13,356 nt of DNA from Acidobacteriota bacterium (lineage in GTDB: Bacteria; Acidobacteriota; Blastocatellia; Pyrinomonadales; Pyrinomonadaceae). The notes below the pieces were generated by a model. The model was not told the origin of the DNA. It worked only from the letters and a program-made list of their open reading frames with translations, and ran no database searches. Below are positions 8,056 through 13,356 of this stretch, piece by piece. The DNA lies in NCBI GenBank assembly GCA_003222935.1, contig QHXL01000146.1:1-13356 (forward strand), read 5' to 3'. How positions within the stretch are numbered: the stretch's first letter is position 1; each line of letters opens with the position of its first letter. Made by a program: the position numbers and the translations under genes.

Positions 8056-11000
8056 TCAGTTCGCAAACCGTCGTCGATACTCCGCCGACAAAATAAACGC
8101 CTTAACCATTTCAGCATTCACAAAATTTCCGTGGAACTGGTTAAGTTTATTCAGCCAAAAGTTATAACCGGATAAGTCATTGTCAGGGGCGTCGTCCGGG
8201 TTACGTCTCAAGTAACCAAAGTACTGCATCAAAACGAACGCTCGATTGAACTCCCGTTGGGCCAACGTTTGGTTTTCACCAAGACGACGAAGTACACGCC
8301 CTCGTGCGCCGTTGAAGTTATTGAACTCATCGATCGACGCTTGTCGCTCTGACGGCGTTGGAACAATGCCGGCGTGCGCATAAAGTGCATCTACAAACTC
8401 GGCCGGGGTTTGTGTTACCGGATACAAGGCAATGAATTCCGGTCGCTCGACAAACTCATTAGCGAAGGCAGTTTTGTTTGCATCCAACTTGGCTTCCCAC
8501 CCCGTAACTCCCACCACAACTCCACGACCGATGCTTTGCGTGTCTTTTAAGAACTCGAGGTAACGCACCAAACCATTTGGGCGGTTCAACGCCGCGTTAT
8601 AGAAGCGGTAAACAAGATAGCCAGTCTCCTGGAACTCAATCGAGAGAAAGTAGGCGGCGGAGACGTTGATCCGTTTCACATCAGTGCAGTGGACATCACT
8701 ACCGCAGCCGGTAATCTCGTTCGTCCAAAACGCATGGCCACTAGGATCAGCCTCGCGATTGAGAAAATCAAAATAGTGCTCGTCCACATAGATACCTGCA
8801 ACGTCATACGGATTGACCGACTGTTCCGTCGCGTCGTCAAGAATAGTTAGTGTCGCAACGCCGAGACTTCCCACTATCGCACCACCTGAAGGATTACTAA
8901 GTGTCAGAGTTGCTGTCTCAGTCCCTTCCACGACTGCATCCTCGGTAATTGATACTCTGAATGTCTTTACTGACTCTCCCACTCCAAAAATCAAGGTTCC
9001 TACAGCTACGGAATAGTCTGTTGCCTGCTTTGCAGTGCCGTCGCTGGTGGCGTAGTTGACTGCCACGATTCGATTGAGATCGCCACTTCTGGTCACAATG
9101 ATCTCAACTGCAGTTGGGTCTTCCATCACGATGTAGTTCGCAGCGCTGAACTGCAGGTTGTTAGGTGGTAATGATTGGCGAACAAAAAAGAGCGGTACTG
9201 GTTCATCAAAGGCGGTTCCAAACACTTCAGAGGTAGATGCTCCGCTGGTTCTTGAAAGAAACCACGTTCCTGGTGAGCTACGGAAAATGGCCACATCCGC
9301 TCTCCCATCACCGTCGTAGTCCGCGGGAGTTGGCATGTCGCCGGGTAAACCAAACTGTACGAACTGTAGCCCCACAGTACTCATTTGAATGGACCAGATT
9401 CCGCTGCTTGGGCTGTAGACGGCAAGATCGGTTACACCATCGTCGTCGTAGTCGGCTGGCGCAGGAATGTCATCACTTGTGCCGAAGTTAATAGATGAAG
9501 TGGCGCCGGTTGAGCTTAACAAGATGCCAAAACTAGCTGTCGACGAACGCCAGTAAGACGCGTCTGACTTACCATCGCCATCAAAGTCACCGATTAAAGG
9601 AATATCTCCTACCGTTCCCATTACCAGAGTGACCGTTTGGCCATTCGAACTGTTGATTCTGATCCATTCACCCGTTGAAGGACGGAATACGCAACGATCC
9701 GATTTTTCGTCACCGTCGAAGTCTCCAGGTACAGGTAAATCTCCAGTCATGCCCAGATCCACACCGGAAAGATTAGAGTTTGAGCTGAACTGGATGAACC
9801 ACAAGCCGATGGGACCGCGTCTGAAAACTGAAAGATCAGTCTTACCATCGCCGTCGTAGTCGGCGGGCGCTTGCAAATCACCGGCTGCTCCAAATTGGCG
9901 TGCCCGAGCGCCGCTCGAGCTCTCGCGTACGGACCATAATCCATTGACCGGGTTAAAGATCGAGACGTCGGCCTTTTTGTCCCCGTCAAAATCTGGGAAG
10001 GTCAGTCTAGGTGAAGTGAAGAAGTAAACAGCACCTTGTCCATTTGGCGAAGTTAGATTCTTTTCCGAGGCACCCACGGCAAGTCGGCCTGAGCCGAAGG
10101 CCAGGCTTCCTCCAAAACGGTCGCCGTTGAATGGATCGCTGGGCGTGAGTTTCTGTTGTTCAGTCCAGGCGGACGAAACTTTTTGGAAGGTGTAAGCCGA
10201 GCCAGCGTCTGGTCCAACTGCCGTGTCATCTTCGCGAGCCCCAATTGCGACTACTCCACGACCGATTGCTACAGACCAACCGAAACGATCGATTGCCGCG
10301 CCGTCCGAGGCAACGAGTTTTTGTTCAAGATTCCAAATCGAACCGTCGAATTGGAAAACGTATGCTGCTCCGGCCTGTGACTTTCCTGCGACGGGAGTAT
10401 CCTCGCGCGCTCCACCCACGAGAGTGTTACCTTCAATTGCAACTGCGCCACCAAAATTGTCGCCGTTGGTTCCATCAAGGATAGCTAGCTTCTGTTGAAG
10501 GCTATATAGACCACCGCCGATCTCGACATAAACATAGACTGCGCCCGCTGCCGTCTGTGGAATGTCGGCGCCGGGAGAACCGACGACGAGTTTGTCGCCG
10601 CTTATGGCGAGGGAGTCGCCAAAAAGATCTCCGAGTATCACGCCACCAGCTGGTGTTAACTTTTGCGTTTCGGTCCAAACGCTTCCAGTTCGACGATAGA
10701 GGTAGGCTGAGCCCGCCGACGCATTGCCCGGCAAGTCAGCGAAGTGAGAACCAACGACAATACTATCGCCCTTAATCGCCACTGCGTTTCCAAATTCGTC
10801 GTCAGCAGTCGAGTCGCTTGCGGTTAACTTTTGCTGTTGAGTCCAGGTTGTACCGTTTCGGACAAAAACGTACGCCGCACCGTTGTTGTTGAAACCAGCA
10901 TTCGCTTGATAGGCGCCTATAACGATCGTGTCACTACTTATCGCAACCGATTGGCCGAACTTGTCCGACGCAGCACCGTCGTTCGCGAGCAACTGTGCCT

Positions 11001-11283
11001 GTTGAGTCCACGTGCCTGCATTGAGGACGTAAACAAACGCTGCGCCTGCCTGGGAAGCGGTGGTCGAATCGAAGCGAGCGCCAACCACCATTGTGTTTCC
11101 GTCAATGGCGATCGCGTAACCGAACTGGGCGCCGACACCTCTTGGCGTACTCGTAATCTTTTGCTTTTGTGAAAAGCTTGCTGCCAGGACGGGCGCTGCA
11201 AATACCAGGATAGCTAGTACCAAAGTGATGCGAATGTCCCAATGCGACTTCGTTTGATTCGACTGTTTGATTTGATCGTTCAT
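8056..11283 (-). CDS. Exported FG-GAP / Calx-beta / DUF4214 protein
   Basis: A 1075-residue exported, probably surface or extracellular protein. A signal peptide spans about residues 1-35 (hydrophobic 19-34, likely cleavage near VLAA). Residues 36-425 hold seven repeats of the form QQKL-x-FG-x-(S/A)(V/L)AI-x-G-x-x-(V/L)VVGA, the blade pattern of FG-GAP beta-propellers. Residues 431-700 hold six more of about 45 residues, each opening with a calcium-loop-like DxDxD (D431, D475, D521, D567, D611, D655). A Calx-beta domain covers about 708-817, ending LTILDD. Residues 825-1075 resemble DUF4214, with HYFDFLNREADPSGHAFW near 836 and a second, weaker copy near 1021-1071. GAGGTG lies 5 bases before the ATG. 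An ECF-type promoter element lies 41 bases upstream. Adhesion or matrix binding is a fair guess from the domains; no catalytic motif is seen. Confidence 0.93.
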   Translation of the reverse strand: MNDQIKQSNQTKSHWDIRITLVLAILVFAAPVLAASFSQKQKITSTPRGVGAQFGYAIAIDGNTMVVGARFDSTTASQAGAAFVYVLNAGTWTQQAQLLANDGAASDKFGQSVAISSDTIVIGAYQANAGFNNNGAAYVFVRNGTTWTQQQKLTASDSTADDEFGNAVAIKGDSIVVGSHFADLPGNASAGSAYLYRRTGSVWTETQKLTPAGGVILGDLFGDSLAISGDKLVVGSPGADIPQTAAGAVYVYVEIGGGLYSLQQKLAILDGTNGDNFGGAVAIEGNTLVGGAREDTPVAGKSQAGAAYVFQFDGSIWNLEQKLVASDGAAIDRFGWSVAIGRGVVAIGAREDDTAVGPDAGSAYTFQKVSSAWTEQQKLTPSDPFNGDRFGGSLAFGSGRLAVGASEKNLTSPNGQGAVYFFTSPRLTFPDFDGDKKADVSIFNPVNGLWSVRESSSGARARQFGAAGDLQAPADYDGDGKTDLSVFRRGPIGLWFIQFSSNSNLSGVDLGMTGDLPVPGDFDGDEKSDRCVFRPSTGEWIRINSSNGQTVTLVMGTVGDIPLIGDFDGDGKSDASYWRSSTASFGILLSSTGATSSINFGTSDDIPAPADYDDDGVTDLAVYSPSSGIWSIQMSTVGLQFVQFGLPGDMPTPADYDGDGRADVAIFRSSPGTWFLSRTSGASTSEVFGTAFDEPVPLFFVRQSLPPNNLQFSAANYIVMEDPTAVEIIVTRSGDLNRIVAVNYATSDGTAKQATDYSVAVGTLIFGVGESVKTFRVSITEDAVVEGTETATLTLSNPSGGAIVGSLGVATLTILDDATEQSVNPYDVAGIYVDEHYFDFLNREADPSGHAFWTNEITGCGSDVHCTDVKRINVSAAYFLSIEFQETGYLVYRFYNAALNRPNGLVRYLEFLKDTQSIGRGVVVGVTGWEAKLDANKTAFANEFVERPEFIALYPVTQTPAEFVDALYAHAGIVPTPSERQASIDEFNNFNGARGRVLRRLGENQTLAQREFNRAFVLMQYFGYLRRNPDDAPDNDLSGYNFWLNKLNQFHGNFVNAEMVKAFILSAEYRRRFAN

Positions 11284-11324
11284 GGTTGCACCTCACGCTC
11301 AACTAAAAACTACTGCTATTGATC

Positions 11325-11353
11325 TACGCGCAGGTGGTGAGAAATTTGGCGGA
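11325..11353 (-). promoter_or_regulatory. Putative ECF sigma promoter, copy B
   Basis: Read on the - strand this is TCCGCCAA, 13 bases, then TGCGCGTA. It matches the element at 12389-12417 at 23 of 29 positions and has the same spacing as the one at 13014-13042. The final CGTA would be the -10 and CCGCCAA the -35, about 17 bases apart, as usual for ECF promoters. It leaves a 41-base leader before the ATG of the 1075-residue exported protein. Assignment to the nearby sigma factor is inferred. Confidence 0.72.
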
Positions 11354-11365
11354 TGCGGGTTTAGG

Positions 11366-11456
11366 AATGTCCGATATGCTTTAGCTTGTCGTGACTTGAT
11401 TTAGTGCCATCTCAGCTGTAATCAGAGTCACGACAAGCTGAAGCATATCGGACATT
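11366..11456. repeat. 31-base inverted repeat
   Basis: Arms 11366-11396 and 11426-11456 are reverse complements at 30 of 31 positions (AATGTCCGATATGC paired with GCATATCGGACATT), around a 29-base loop; the mismatch could be a G-U pair in RNA. It begins 6 bases beyond the stop of the OB-fold protein gene and ends 12 bases before promoter copy B, so it may separate the two - strand transcripts. It is unrelated in sequence to the other repeats in the window. No T-run is attached. Confidence 0.87.
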
Positions 11457-11462
11457 TCTTAT

Positions 11463-12332
11463 TTACTCCGGTACTGTGCAGTCTTTCAAAACCAGGAAAC
11501 CTTTTGAGTTTGCGAAGCCATCGCCCAGGCCTTTGACTGTGCCATCGACAGTTACCTCTTCCCCCGCATTAAACCGGCTCACTTTCGCACTCTGAGAACT
11601 GTTCAAGTAACAATGTGCCATCATGTAAGTTGATACCGACGATTTGAAGGTCAAGACAATGTTTCCTGCGCGATCGAGTTCGACGGTGTTTACAGTGCCA
11701 AAAACTCTCATGCGTTTGCCTATGTATGTCTGATTGGCGCGAACCTCATTAGTCTCAAATTCTCGAACGAGTGCAGCGACGTGCATCGCGCCGGTTGGAG
11801 AGACTGCTGCCGGCTCATTTACTTTCGCCAGGGAATCGATTGGTTCGATGCTGCTCACGAAAGCAACCAGCTGGGACAAATAAGTTTCGTCGTTTGCAAT
11901 TCCCAAAATGCTGATTACAGTTTTCCCGCGGCTTAACACCGTCAGAAACGCAGCCGCTCTTGCTCCCTGAACTTCGATTCCCGCGCCTCCCGAAATGCCG
12001 ATCCAACCTGCGGCTGATTCAGTTTCAGTTTTGGGCTTAGGGTCTGCTTTGAATGGTTTGACAACCAGTTGACTCCACTCGTGGTTGAAGTCGCTTTGCG
12101 CATCGCCGCTACCGGGTGTGGCGCCGTATAGCGTGATAAAGCAGTAAGCTCCGGTCGCCTCATTCTGCTTACTGAACACAACGACATTCTCCTTCGATGT
12201 TTTCACCCAGTCCTGGGGCGGTTTGTAACGCACAAGCCCTAACGTTTCCGTTTGACCAGACGCGATGGTAATGGTGAACAGACAAATAATCTGAGCAACG
12301 AGAAAACAGCGAATTAGGTTTGGTCTCTTCAT
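11463..12332 (-). CDS. Exported protein with OB-fold (tRNA_anti-like) domain
   Basis: A 289-residue protein of unknown function. Residues 1-26 form a signal peptide (basic start, hydrophobic 9-24, Ala/Ser/Gly cleavage region). Residues 30-165 are an unassigned domain with YKPPQDWVKT and VVKPFKADPKPKTET stretches. Residues 183-288 look like the OB-fold 'tRNA_anti-like' family: EFETNEVRANQTYIGKRMRV, then FGTV, AHCYL, GEEVTVDGTVKGLG and a final VLKDCTV. Despite the family name, an exported copy is unlikely to act on tRNA. AGAGGGA just before the ATG is a good ribosome binding site. An ECF-type promoter element lies 56 bases upstream, and the gene is divergent from the ECF sigma gene. The signal peptide is confident; the OB-fold call is moderate. 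Confidence 0.85.
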   Translation of the reverse strand: MKRPNLIRCFLVAQIICLFTITIASGQTETLGLVRYKPPQDWVKTSKENVVVFSKQNEATGAYCFITLYGATPGSGDAQSDFNHEWSQLVVKPFKADPKPKTETESAAGWIGISGGAGIEVQGARAAAFLTVLSRGKTVISILGIANDETYLSQLVAFVSSIEPIDSLAKVNEPAAVSPTGAMHVAALVREFETNEVRANQTYIGKRMRVFGTVNTVELDRAGNIVLTFKSSVSTYMMAHCYLNSSQSAKVSRFNAGEEVTVDGTVKGLGDGFANSKGFLVLKDCTVPE

Positions 12333-12388
12333 GCTTCCCTCTATGGCTTAATGGACAAATTTCGTTAGAACGAGTTCCCCTATCTATT

Positions 12389-12417
12389 TACGCGCAAGCG
12401 GTGTAAGAATTGGCGGA
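12389..12417 (-). promoter_or_regulatory. Putative ECF sigma promoter, copy A
   Basis: On the - strand this reads TCCGCCAA, 13 bases, TGCGCGTA. It lies in the 117-base gap between the divergent sigma and OB-fold protein genes and points at the OB-fold gene, leaving a 56-base leader. It matches copy B at 23 of 29 positions. No equivalent in the + direction is seen ahead of the sigma gene within this gap. Confidence 0.72.
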
Positions 12418-12449
12418 GTCGTGGCAGAACCTGACGGCCAGAGTGAACT

Positions 12450-13013
12450 ATGGAAACCTCATCTGACGAAGTATCTGGGTTATTGCAGGACTGGGGCGGG
12501 GGCAATCAGCAGGCACTCGAGAAACTAGTGCCCCTCATCTATGCTGAGTTACGCCAGATGGCACATCGCTGTCTCTATCGCGAACGCCCTGGCCACACAC
12601 TCCAAACTACAGCACTGGTTCACGAAGCCTACTTAAAACTAATCGACCAAAGAGACACGCACTGGCAGAATCGTGCCCACTTTTTTGCGATTGCCGCACA
12701 AGCGATGCGGCGCATACTCGTGGATAATGCGCGACGTCACCAGGCCTTAAAGCGCGGCGGTCCCGCCGAGAACCTGGAACTGGACGAAGCGGCCAATGTC
12801 TCGCTCGATCCTGATCCCATCCTCCTGCCACTGGACGAAGCTCTTGTCCGACTCGCCGAGATCGATCAACAACAAAGCCGAGTCGTAGAACTTCGCTTTT
12901 TTGGTGGACTGACTATTGAAGAGACCGCTGAAGTGTTGGGTCTTTCTGTTGACATGGTTAAGCGTGAGTGGGCCATGGCACGCGCCTGGCTACGACAGTA
13001 TCTCAGCGATTGA
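12450..13013 (+). CDS. ECF sigma factor, TIGR02999-type
   Basis: A 187-residue RNA polymerase sigma factor of the extracytoplasmic-function class, closest in style to the TIGR02999 / Sigma70_ECF family. Region 2 spans about residues 8-97, with the family-typical LQTTALVHEAYLKL at 51-64 and HFFAIAAQAMRRILVDNARR at 78-97. Region 4 spans about 130-184, with RVVELRFFGGLTIEETAEVL at 144-163 and the recognition helix near SVDMVKREWAMARAWL at 166-181. There is no adjacent anti-sigma factor with a zinc motif. Members of this family are often paired with serine/threonine kinases, and a kinase begins 82 bases downstream. The ribosome binding site ahead of the ATG is weak. Likely targets are the three matching promoter elements nearby (inference). 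Confidence 0.94.
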   Translation: METSSDEVSGLLQDWGGGNQQALEKLVPLIYAELRQMAHRCLYRERPGHTLQTTALVHEAYLKLIDQRDTHWQNRAHFFAIAAQAMRRILVDNARRHQALKRGGPAENLELDEAANVSLDPDPILLPLDEALVRLAEIDQQQSRVVELRFFGGLTIEETAEVLGLSVDMVKREWAMARAWLRQYLSD

Positions 13014-13042
13014 TCCGCCATTCCCTCCGTCGCCTGCGCGTA
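13014..13042 (+). promoter_or_regulatory. Putative ECF sigma promoter, copy C
   Basis: TCCGCCAT at 13014-13021, 13 bases, then TGCGCGTA at 13035-13042. It begins on the base after the sigma stop codon. Core boxes and spacing equal copies A and B except for one base in the -35 box. It points at the kinase gene, leaving a 53-base leader that contains the GC hairpin. The kinase would therefore have its own promoter beyond any read-through from the sigma gene. Confidence 0.68.
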
Positions 13043-13050
13043 TTAATTGT

Positions 13051-13076
13051 AGGGGCGGCACTCCGTGGCCGCCCCT
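13051..13076. repeat. GC-rich palindromic hairpin
   Basis: AGGGGCGGC at 13051-13059 and GCCGCCCCT at 13068-13076 form a perfect 9-base stem with an 8-base loop. It lies between promoter copy C and the kinase ATG at 13096, so it would be in the kinase leader RNA. Similar GGGGCGGC palindromes are common interspersed repeats in several phyla as I recall. No T-run follows, so simple termination is unlikely. Confidence 0.8.
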
Positions 13077-13095: not shown

Positions 13096-13356
13096 ATGAA
13101 CGAAACCTGGCAACAACTAAAAACCATCTTCCATGCAGTCATGGATCTCGATCCCACGGAACGAGCTTCGTATATAGCCCAAGCCTGTGCCGGCGACAAC
13201 GAATTGCGAAACCAAGTTGAGCGTCTTCTCTCCGCTCATGATCAATCCGGTGCGTTCCTTGTGTCTCCAGCTCAATTGGTCGCCACTCAGACCGGTAATG
13301 AGGGCGACGATTTTCGAGACCAGCGAGAAGGTGAGCGCATCGGCCCCTACAAAATA
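13096..13356 (+). CDS. Serine/threonine protein kinase, N-terminal fragment
   Basis: The frame is open from ATG 13096 to the window edge, giving 87 residues, so the gene is cut by the window and not by a stop. The opening follows a pattern common in acidobacterial Ser/Thr kinases: W-x-x-L-K-x-I-F-H-A-V at about 5-15, LDPTERASYIAQACAGDNEL at 18-37, VERLLSAHDQSGAFL at 42-56, and GERIGPYKI at 79-87, where the kinase domain normally begins. The ATP loop and catalytic residues lie outside the window. The gene follows the ECF sigma gene on the same strand and has its own copy of the putative ECF promoter. It is likely to signal together with that sigma factor. The ribosome binding site is weak. Confidence 0.85.
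   Translation, partial: MNETWQQLKTIFHAVMDLDPTERASYIAQACAGDNELRNQVERLLSAHDQSGAFLVSPAQLVATQTGNEGDDFRDQREGERIGPYKI

Follow-up and report, generated by a model that had tools for sequence, protein, structure and literature searches.

Three bipartite elements around a sigma factor gene

The window, that is, the entire stretch of 13,356 nucleotides analyzed here, carries near its end a gene for an extracytoplasmic function (ECF) sigma factor, and the genes around it are preceded by three bipartite elements with identical boxes at identical spacing. The question raised by this locus is whether these elements are promoters read by the adjacent sigma factor and how the sequence that would be recognized compares with that of related sigma factors. 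The sigma gene (12450..13013, + strand) encodes a protein of 187 aa matching PF07638 (2.7e-59) and belongs to TIGR02999 (Sig-70_X6), scoring 228.1 bits vs. the curated cut-off of 126.15. Downstream on the same strand, a Ser/Thr protein kinase gene begins (13096..13356, +) and is cut by the contig end; its first 87 aa gave no Pfam match and are identified by homology, with 53% identity to the N terminus of the kinase of the related locus L050, which runs on into PF00069. On the opposite strand are gene A (8056..11283, −; 1075 aa), with FG-GAP repeats, Calx-beta, and DUF4214 in the domain search, and gene B (11463..12332, −; 289 aa), with a tRNA_anti-like domain (PF12869, 4.4e-13). By eye, both proteins have signal-peptide-like N termini.

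The element, TCCGCCA-N14-TGCGCGTA, occurs in the window in exactly three exact copies, each 41-56 bases 5′ of a different gene. The gene A copy is at 11325..11353 (−), with the −35 box TCCGCCA at 11347-11353 and the −10 box TGCGCGTA at 11325-11332; the gene B copy is at 12389..12417 (−), with the boxes at 12411-12417 and 12389-12396; and the kinase gene copy is at 13014..13042 (+), with the −35 box (13014-13020) starting directly 3′ of the sigma stop codon and the −10 box at 13035-13042. All three sites were predicted originally at exactly these positions and on these strands, and the leaders of 41, 56, and 53 bases given for them, leading to gene starts at 11283 (−), 12332 (−), and 13096 (+), are right as well. 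The spacing is identical, as proposed, with the correction that the layout is 7 + 14 + 8 bases rather than one with N13, the A/T after the seventh base falling outside the box. The N14 stretches and the flanks differ among the three copies, in agreement with the view that this is not a copied repeat.

Even when 3 mismatches are tolerated, no match beyond these three turns up in the window, vs. a mean of 0.38 and a maximum of 2 in 200 dinucleotide shuffles of the window searched at the same stringency, none of which reached three. In the whole assembly (5,193,765 bases in 695 contigs, fragmented and 88.6% complete), the three copies are the only matches with 0-1 mismatch, so that no further regulon member was found elsewhere in it at this level; the next best matches have 2 mismatches, and up to 3 mismatches the excess over the reversed-pattern control is modest (162 vs. 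118). A scan at up to 1 mismatch, put forward as a check of the original prediction, thus singles out these sites in their own assembly but not across genomes: the 59 genomes searched, own included, gave 105 matches vs. 59 for the reversed pattern, a scattered background, and the three exact matches outside the own genome fall in three different genomes. Because the word is scattered background across genomes, what counts as signal is not the word itself but the clustering of three copies that are each placed correctly.

In all three copies, TGCGCGTA stands 14 bases past the −35 box, which corresponds to a CGT-type −10 at a fixed distance from the −35, a trait of ECF promoters. The AAC that is usual in the −35 of ECF promoters is absent: the box is TCCGCCA in the window and mostly TGAGCCN or TGAGGGN at those relatives that have a site. 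No sigma-70-type promoter was found between 11200 and 13150 (shuffle mean 1.8), and Rfam at gathering scores returned no match.

Sister loci carry different −35 boxes in corresponding places

The own genome encodes 15 TIGR02999 proteins above the family cut-off, and the locus of the closest paralog, L031, whose sigma factor is 73% identical to that of the window, contains TGAGCCA-N14-TGCGCGTA twice, before the divergent gene and between the sigma and kinase genes. In the same two positions, L051 has TGAGCCG twice, L079 has TGAGCCA and TGAGCCG, and L189 has TGAGCCG and TGAGCCA. The closest relative found, L050 (sigma 84% identical), carries a TGCGCCA site, that is, an intermediate −35; its site corresponding to the gene B promoter differs at 1 of the 14 N14 positions, and its kinase gene is preceded only by the degenerate CGCGCTA-N14-TGCGCGTT. 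In a tree of 45 loci, the window sigma groups with that of L050 as its sister (support 100/99), both belonging to a six-member clade, the other four members of which have TGAGCC. Gene A is 68% identical to the partial divergent frame of L079 and 69% identical to that of L031; in front of these three genes, the −10 box is identical, and two of the seven −35 bases differ. The −10 of the window also recurs at the C392 paralog, and among the loci examined TCCGCCA occurs at this one locus only. Judged by the sister loci, with TGAGCCA, TGAGCCG, or TGCGCCA in the corresponding places, the −35 of the window is derived. A scan of named genomes contributed a single locus, L188, from a Pyrinomonadaceae metagenome-assembled genome (sigma 58% identical).

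A putative divergent promoter in a subset of the family

The original prediction offered TCCGCCA..TGCGCGTA as a candidate motif for the TIGR02999 group, and this generalization is not supported: the site typical of related loci is a different one, TGAG(CC/GG)N-N14-NNCGCGTW, and precedes the divergent gene. For scoring, a two-box matrix was built from TGAG seed sites on the divergent strand, so that the conservation of TGAG is partly built in; the cut-off was >10, and the opposite strand served as control. The first 124 loci came from 59 genomes and were picked by similarity to the window sigma; the matrix was then kept fixed for 76 fresh loci (96 before duplicates were removed), chosen by family score and by similarity to Glu171, Lys171, or window sigma factors, plus L188, and for 19 further loci drawn over the phylum. 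On the divergent strand, 33 of the first 124 loci vs. 2 of 124 controls exceeded the cut-off, an in-sample figure because the matrix was trained there; among the fresh loci, the counts were 20/76 vs. 0/76, and among the phylum loci 5/19 vs. 0/19, all five outside the class of the window. Downstream of the sigma gene, the excess was weak in the first loci (24/124 vs. 10/124), with 10/76 vs. 8/76 in the fresh loci (7 vs. 3 at a score >14) and 0/19 vs. 0/19 over the phylum. Since the divergent excess holds in fresh and phylum loci and the downstream excess is weak, the divergent promoter is general to a subset of the family, and the putative promoter before the kinase gene is clear in the clade of the window and in some of the Glu171 loci but not outside these. 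No divergent-gene site scoring >10 was found at 91 of the 124 first, 56 of the 76 fresh, and 11 of the 15 own-genome TIGR02999 loci.

The bases 3′ of the −10 lie outside the matrix, and there we found a start-site signature, with T as the seventh base and a purine as the eighth, in 35 of 47 sites vs. 3 of 32 control matches, at unequal cut-offs (sites scoring >14, control matches >8). The 47 sites all come from outside the clade of the window; of the 32 divergent ones among them 25 have the signature, and of the 15 downstream ones 10. Because the signature was not used for finding the sites and is present nonetheless, it supports promoter function. The gene A and gene B sites fit it exactly, which would place their starts at 11317 and 12381, respectively; at the kinase gene site these letters are shifted by one base in the 3′ direction, with a predicted start at about 13051.

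Searches with a simplified pattern and without a matrix were less discriminating. TGAGSSA-N16-CGCGTW has four exact copies in the own genome, all four beside TIGR02999 genes (C392 and C525); over the 59 genomes, it gave 134 matches vs. 81 for the reversed pattern, so that outside the own genome many matches must be background. In a matrix-free search for site pairs, most self-pairs scored at the level of cross-pairs (12-13) and only high scorers were informative. Self-pairs scoring at least 14 numbered 10, 9, 11, 11, and 12 of 124 for gaps of 12 to 16, vs. 8, 13, 5, 5, and 7 of 600 cross-pairs; being similarly frequent at every gap, they provide no test of spacing. Autoregulation was considered as well and set aside, the motif facing the sigma gene with a score >10 in 2 of the 124 first and none of the 76 fresh loci.

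Elsewhere, on contig 10 of genome G036, a stretch of 4.3 kb (42209-46495) beside the sigma gene of L075 contains TGAGCCA-N16-CGCGTT four times in the same orientation, possibly a larger local regulon.

The −35 box follows the recognition helix of region 4.2

The recognition helix of the window sigma, V167-D168-M169-V170-K171-R172-E173-W174 (12948..12971, +), was located by protein position, alignment to SigW, and covariation. In a 38-row table, hand-picked from the scans with four TTAGAGG loci, L071, and L072 added by eye and L042 (Glu171, TGAGGGA, poor −10) left out, HATVER-type helices pair with TGAGGG and PATVKR-type helices mostly with TGAGCC; PGTVMR pairs with TTAGAGG, IDTVKR with TGCGCCA, and VDMVKR with TCCGCCA. 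The exceptions in this table are Gln171 with TGAGGGA (L087) and Lys171 with A at −31 (L071, L137). A single rule, taking the best divergent site scoring >10, brings L042 in and leaves the by-eye additions out. Under this rule, C at −31 accompanies Lys or Arg171 in 20 of 21 loci vs. 0 of 12 with other residues, and in fresh loci in 10 of 11 vs. 1 of 8; like the other counts given here, these ignore the kinship of the loci. Likewise, TGAGGG precedes the divergent gene in 4 of 5 fresh Glu171 loci vs. 0 of the 70 others with a parsed helix (the Fisher test took 71 non-Glu loci); the helix was unparsed in 6 of 200 loci (L038, L040, L041, L112, L143, L234).

Among Glu171 loci, 15 of 20 have a GG site scoring >10, with none in L032, L043, L045, L122, and L232; 14 of the 15 with a GG site also carry His167, and GG may thus require more than Glu171. 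The tree includes 14 Glu171 loci, which all fall into a single clade, with L087 elsewhere. L190 is a counterexample: downstream of its Lys171 sigma gene lies TGAGGGA with a spacing of 13 bases, and the control strand has TGAGGGA as well. Asp168 goes with C at −33 in L149 and L151, and L091 and L126 disagree; for the Asp168 and Met169 steps (C-33 and C-34 in the window), support comes mainly from two sister loci. A search with gapped 5-mers for a motif shared by Asp/Glu168 sigma factors gave nothing above control.

Sites of the same locus also resemble each other: over 20 loci, the mean −35 distance within a locus was 0.30 vs. 2.00 on permutation, with none of 20,000 permutations as low, in a set that includes loci noticed for their alike sites and sites below the cut-off (L050 downstream, L071, L114). 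Within the clade of six, the concordance is modest (0.67 vs. 1.50 permuted, fraction 0.044).

When the family profile was aligned with HMMER to the SigW chain 5wuq, K171, M169, and R172 of the window sigma corresponded to K170, T168, and T171 of SigW. In the complex of Bacillus subtilis SigW, as its base contacts are described, K170 reads G′-31 and T168 and T171 read A-34 (PMC6713349). The helix positions that track the −35 thus match or adjoin the base-contacting residues described for SigW, and K171, like K170, would read the template-strand G at −31 (PMC6713349). Unlike SigW, with its −35 GAAACCT, the window has TCCGCCA, and its sigma factor has Met at a described contact position with Asp beside it (PMC6713349).

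The genes preceded by the sites provide a further comparison. Homologs of gene A at L031 and L079 carry TGAGCCA vs. TCCGCCA in the window, and a family of ~150-aa proteins has TGAGGGA or TGAGGGG beside Glu171 sigma factors and TGAGCCC beside the Lys171 sigma factors of L081 and L155. Since the same target families have different −35 boxes beside different sigma factors, the −35 follows the sigma factor, not the target. Overall, these data suggest that the DNA-reading helix and the start signal change together across related loci; sister sigma factors encoded by the same genome would thus probably each recognize a signal of their own.

The ~150-aa family itself has signal-peptide-like starts (IPFxFxxGxxxLPAGEY) and is encoded divergently from twelve Glu171-type sigma genes (L035, L054, L059, L061, L062, L073, L088, L096, L101, L153, L229, L230), with relatives at the Lys171 loci L081 and L155; in the tally of secreted targets, L231 and L233 had no usable frame. 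The TTAGAGG sites belong to Met171 sigma factors (L065, L067, L114, L118), and the C at −33 of the Asp168 sigma factors L149 and L151 is found in TCCGAGT and TTCAACT; these two pairings may be further letters of the code, the disagreement of L091 and L126 noted above applying to the second.

Alternative readings and a proposed circuit

We consider the three elements to be promoters of the adjacent ECF sigma factor, with a probability of roughly 0.86. Directly, this reading is based on identical boxes and spacing before three genes, found in the assembly only here at 0-1 mismatch; comparatively, it draws on corresponding elements at sister loci, a −35 that changes in step with the helix, and the start signature at fixed spacing. 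The original prediction of an ECF-type promoter, most probably read by the sigma factor at 12450-13013 and defining a local regulon, is strengthened by the sister-locus sites and by the tracking of region 4.2 by the −35. It is improbable that the elements instead bind another transcription factor, an activator or repressor of the three genes, with the sigma factor as a bystander: a dimeric regulator would also account for bipartite boxes at fixed spacing, but the elements are directional and nonpalindromic, lie 41-56 bases before the gene starts, and include a −10-like box, 3′ of which the start signature appears at related sites, and their −35 half varies with sigma residues at or beside the SigW −35-contact positions. 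About equally improbable is that they are promoters read by another of the ECF sigma factors encoded in the genome. Such a reading could appeal to the many TIGR02999 paralogs and to the −10 held in common with the C392 paralog, but in the assembly copies with 0-1 mismatch surround only this sigma gene, and sister sigma genes with sites have their own version of the −35. That the matches arose by chance, or by recent copying of a single DNA segment, is a very remote prospect, the background frequency of the word in related genomes at up to 1 mismatch notwithstanding, given that no shuffle reached three matches, that the N14 stretches and flanks differ, and that other genomes have sites in corresponding positions.

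If the adjacent sigma factor does read the elements, a kinase-controlled circuit can be proposed. In region 2.2, the window sigma has Q52-T53-T54-A55 (12603..12614, +, placed by protein position) instead of the acidic DxxD. QTTA occurs in 73 of 182 parsed relatives, with Thr at the third position in 157 and Ser in 22 of the 182 (region 2.2 was unparsed in 18 of 200 loci), and of the 184 loci whose downstream sequence extends for 900 bases or more, 147 encode the kinase signature HRDxKPxN there, in the orientation of the sigma gene; PF00069 was found in the L031 and L050 kinases. The sigma factor would be inactive until the neighboring Ser/Thr kinase phosphorylates it, probably at Thr54. Once active, it would read T-35 C-34 C-33 G-32 C-31 C-30 A-29 together with CGCGTA and transcribe the kinase gene, in positive feedback, as well as the secreted-type neighbors gene B and gene A. 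No copy of the motif faces the sigma gene, which makes its autoregulation through the motif improbable, and feedback would therefore run through the kinase.

The ancestor of the window sigma would have read TGAGCCA, with the protein and its −35 changing jointly since then. Such a joint divergence would insulate this sigma factor from the paralog with 73% identity that the same genome encodes. A general code, in which the helix sets the −35 (Lys171, CC; Glu171 with His167, GG; Met171, AG; Asp168, C-33; Met169, C-34) and the joint switch from TGAGCCA through TGCGCCA to TCCGCCA yields insulated circuits, strikes us as slightly better than an even bet.

Relation to known systems

Two hallmarks of ECF43 sigma factors with Hanks-type kinases are present in the window, namely a Ser/Thr kinase gene adjoining the sigma gene, recognized through the homology of its N terminus to the L050 kinase (the kinase domain proper would lie past the end of the contig), and an uncharged region 2.2 motif agreeing with the QTTA consensus presented for ECF43 (PMC13147305). 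In the accounts of EcfP/PknT from Vibrio parahaemolyticus and EcfK/PknS from Xanthomonas citri, ECF43 members have QTTA in region 2.2, where most ECF sigma factors have acidic residues for core binding; EcfP and EcfK are switched on by the neighboring kinase, and EcfK additionally depends on a second site in its own linker (PMC13147305, PMC8999054). Unlike these systems as described, here the kinase gene and the divergent genes carry a putative promoter of the sigma type, and phosphorylation is a prediction. At all seven places of the EcfK paper that name a "promoter", a consensus of the target promoters is absent.

A promoter motif for TIGR02999-type sigma factors was not found in the literature searched, mostly outside subscription journals. 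ECF motifs are commonly derived from autoregulatory promoters, and a likely reason for the lack of a reported motif is that the sites precede the neighbors rather than the sigma gene. The analysis of ECF sigma-promoter specificity by Todor et al. 2020 reportedly found that ECF residues and promoter bases covary; in contrast to that analysis as described, the present promoters belong to genes next to the sigma gene, and the series was assembled from sister loci, with one pair within one genome. Within the literature searched, the promoter class for kinase-linked sigma factors and the stepwise −35 series appear to be new. In a family as numerous in this genome as TIGR02999, the series TGAGCCA, TGCGCCA, TCCGCCA would offer a concrete and cheap test of how protein and DNA can change in pairs while function is kept, as well as a source of candidate orthogonal sigma-promoter pairs.

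An imperfect inverted repeat at 11363-11459, between gene B and the gene A promoter, has 34-base arms that are 94% complementary and separated by 29 bases. By eye, long palindromes seem to be present between the sigma and kinase genes in L031 and L051, and the leader of the kinase gene in the window contains a GC-rich hairpin-like stretch, GGGGCGGC...GCCGCCCC, at 13052-13075.
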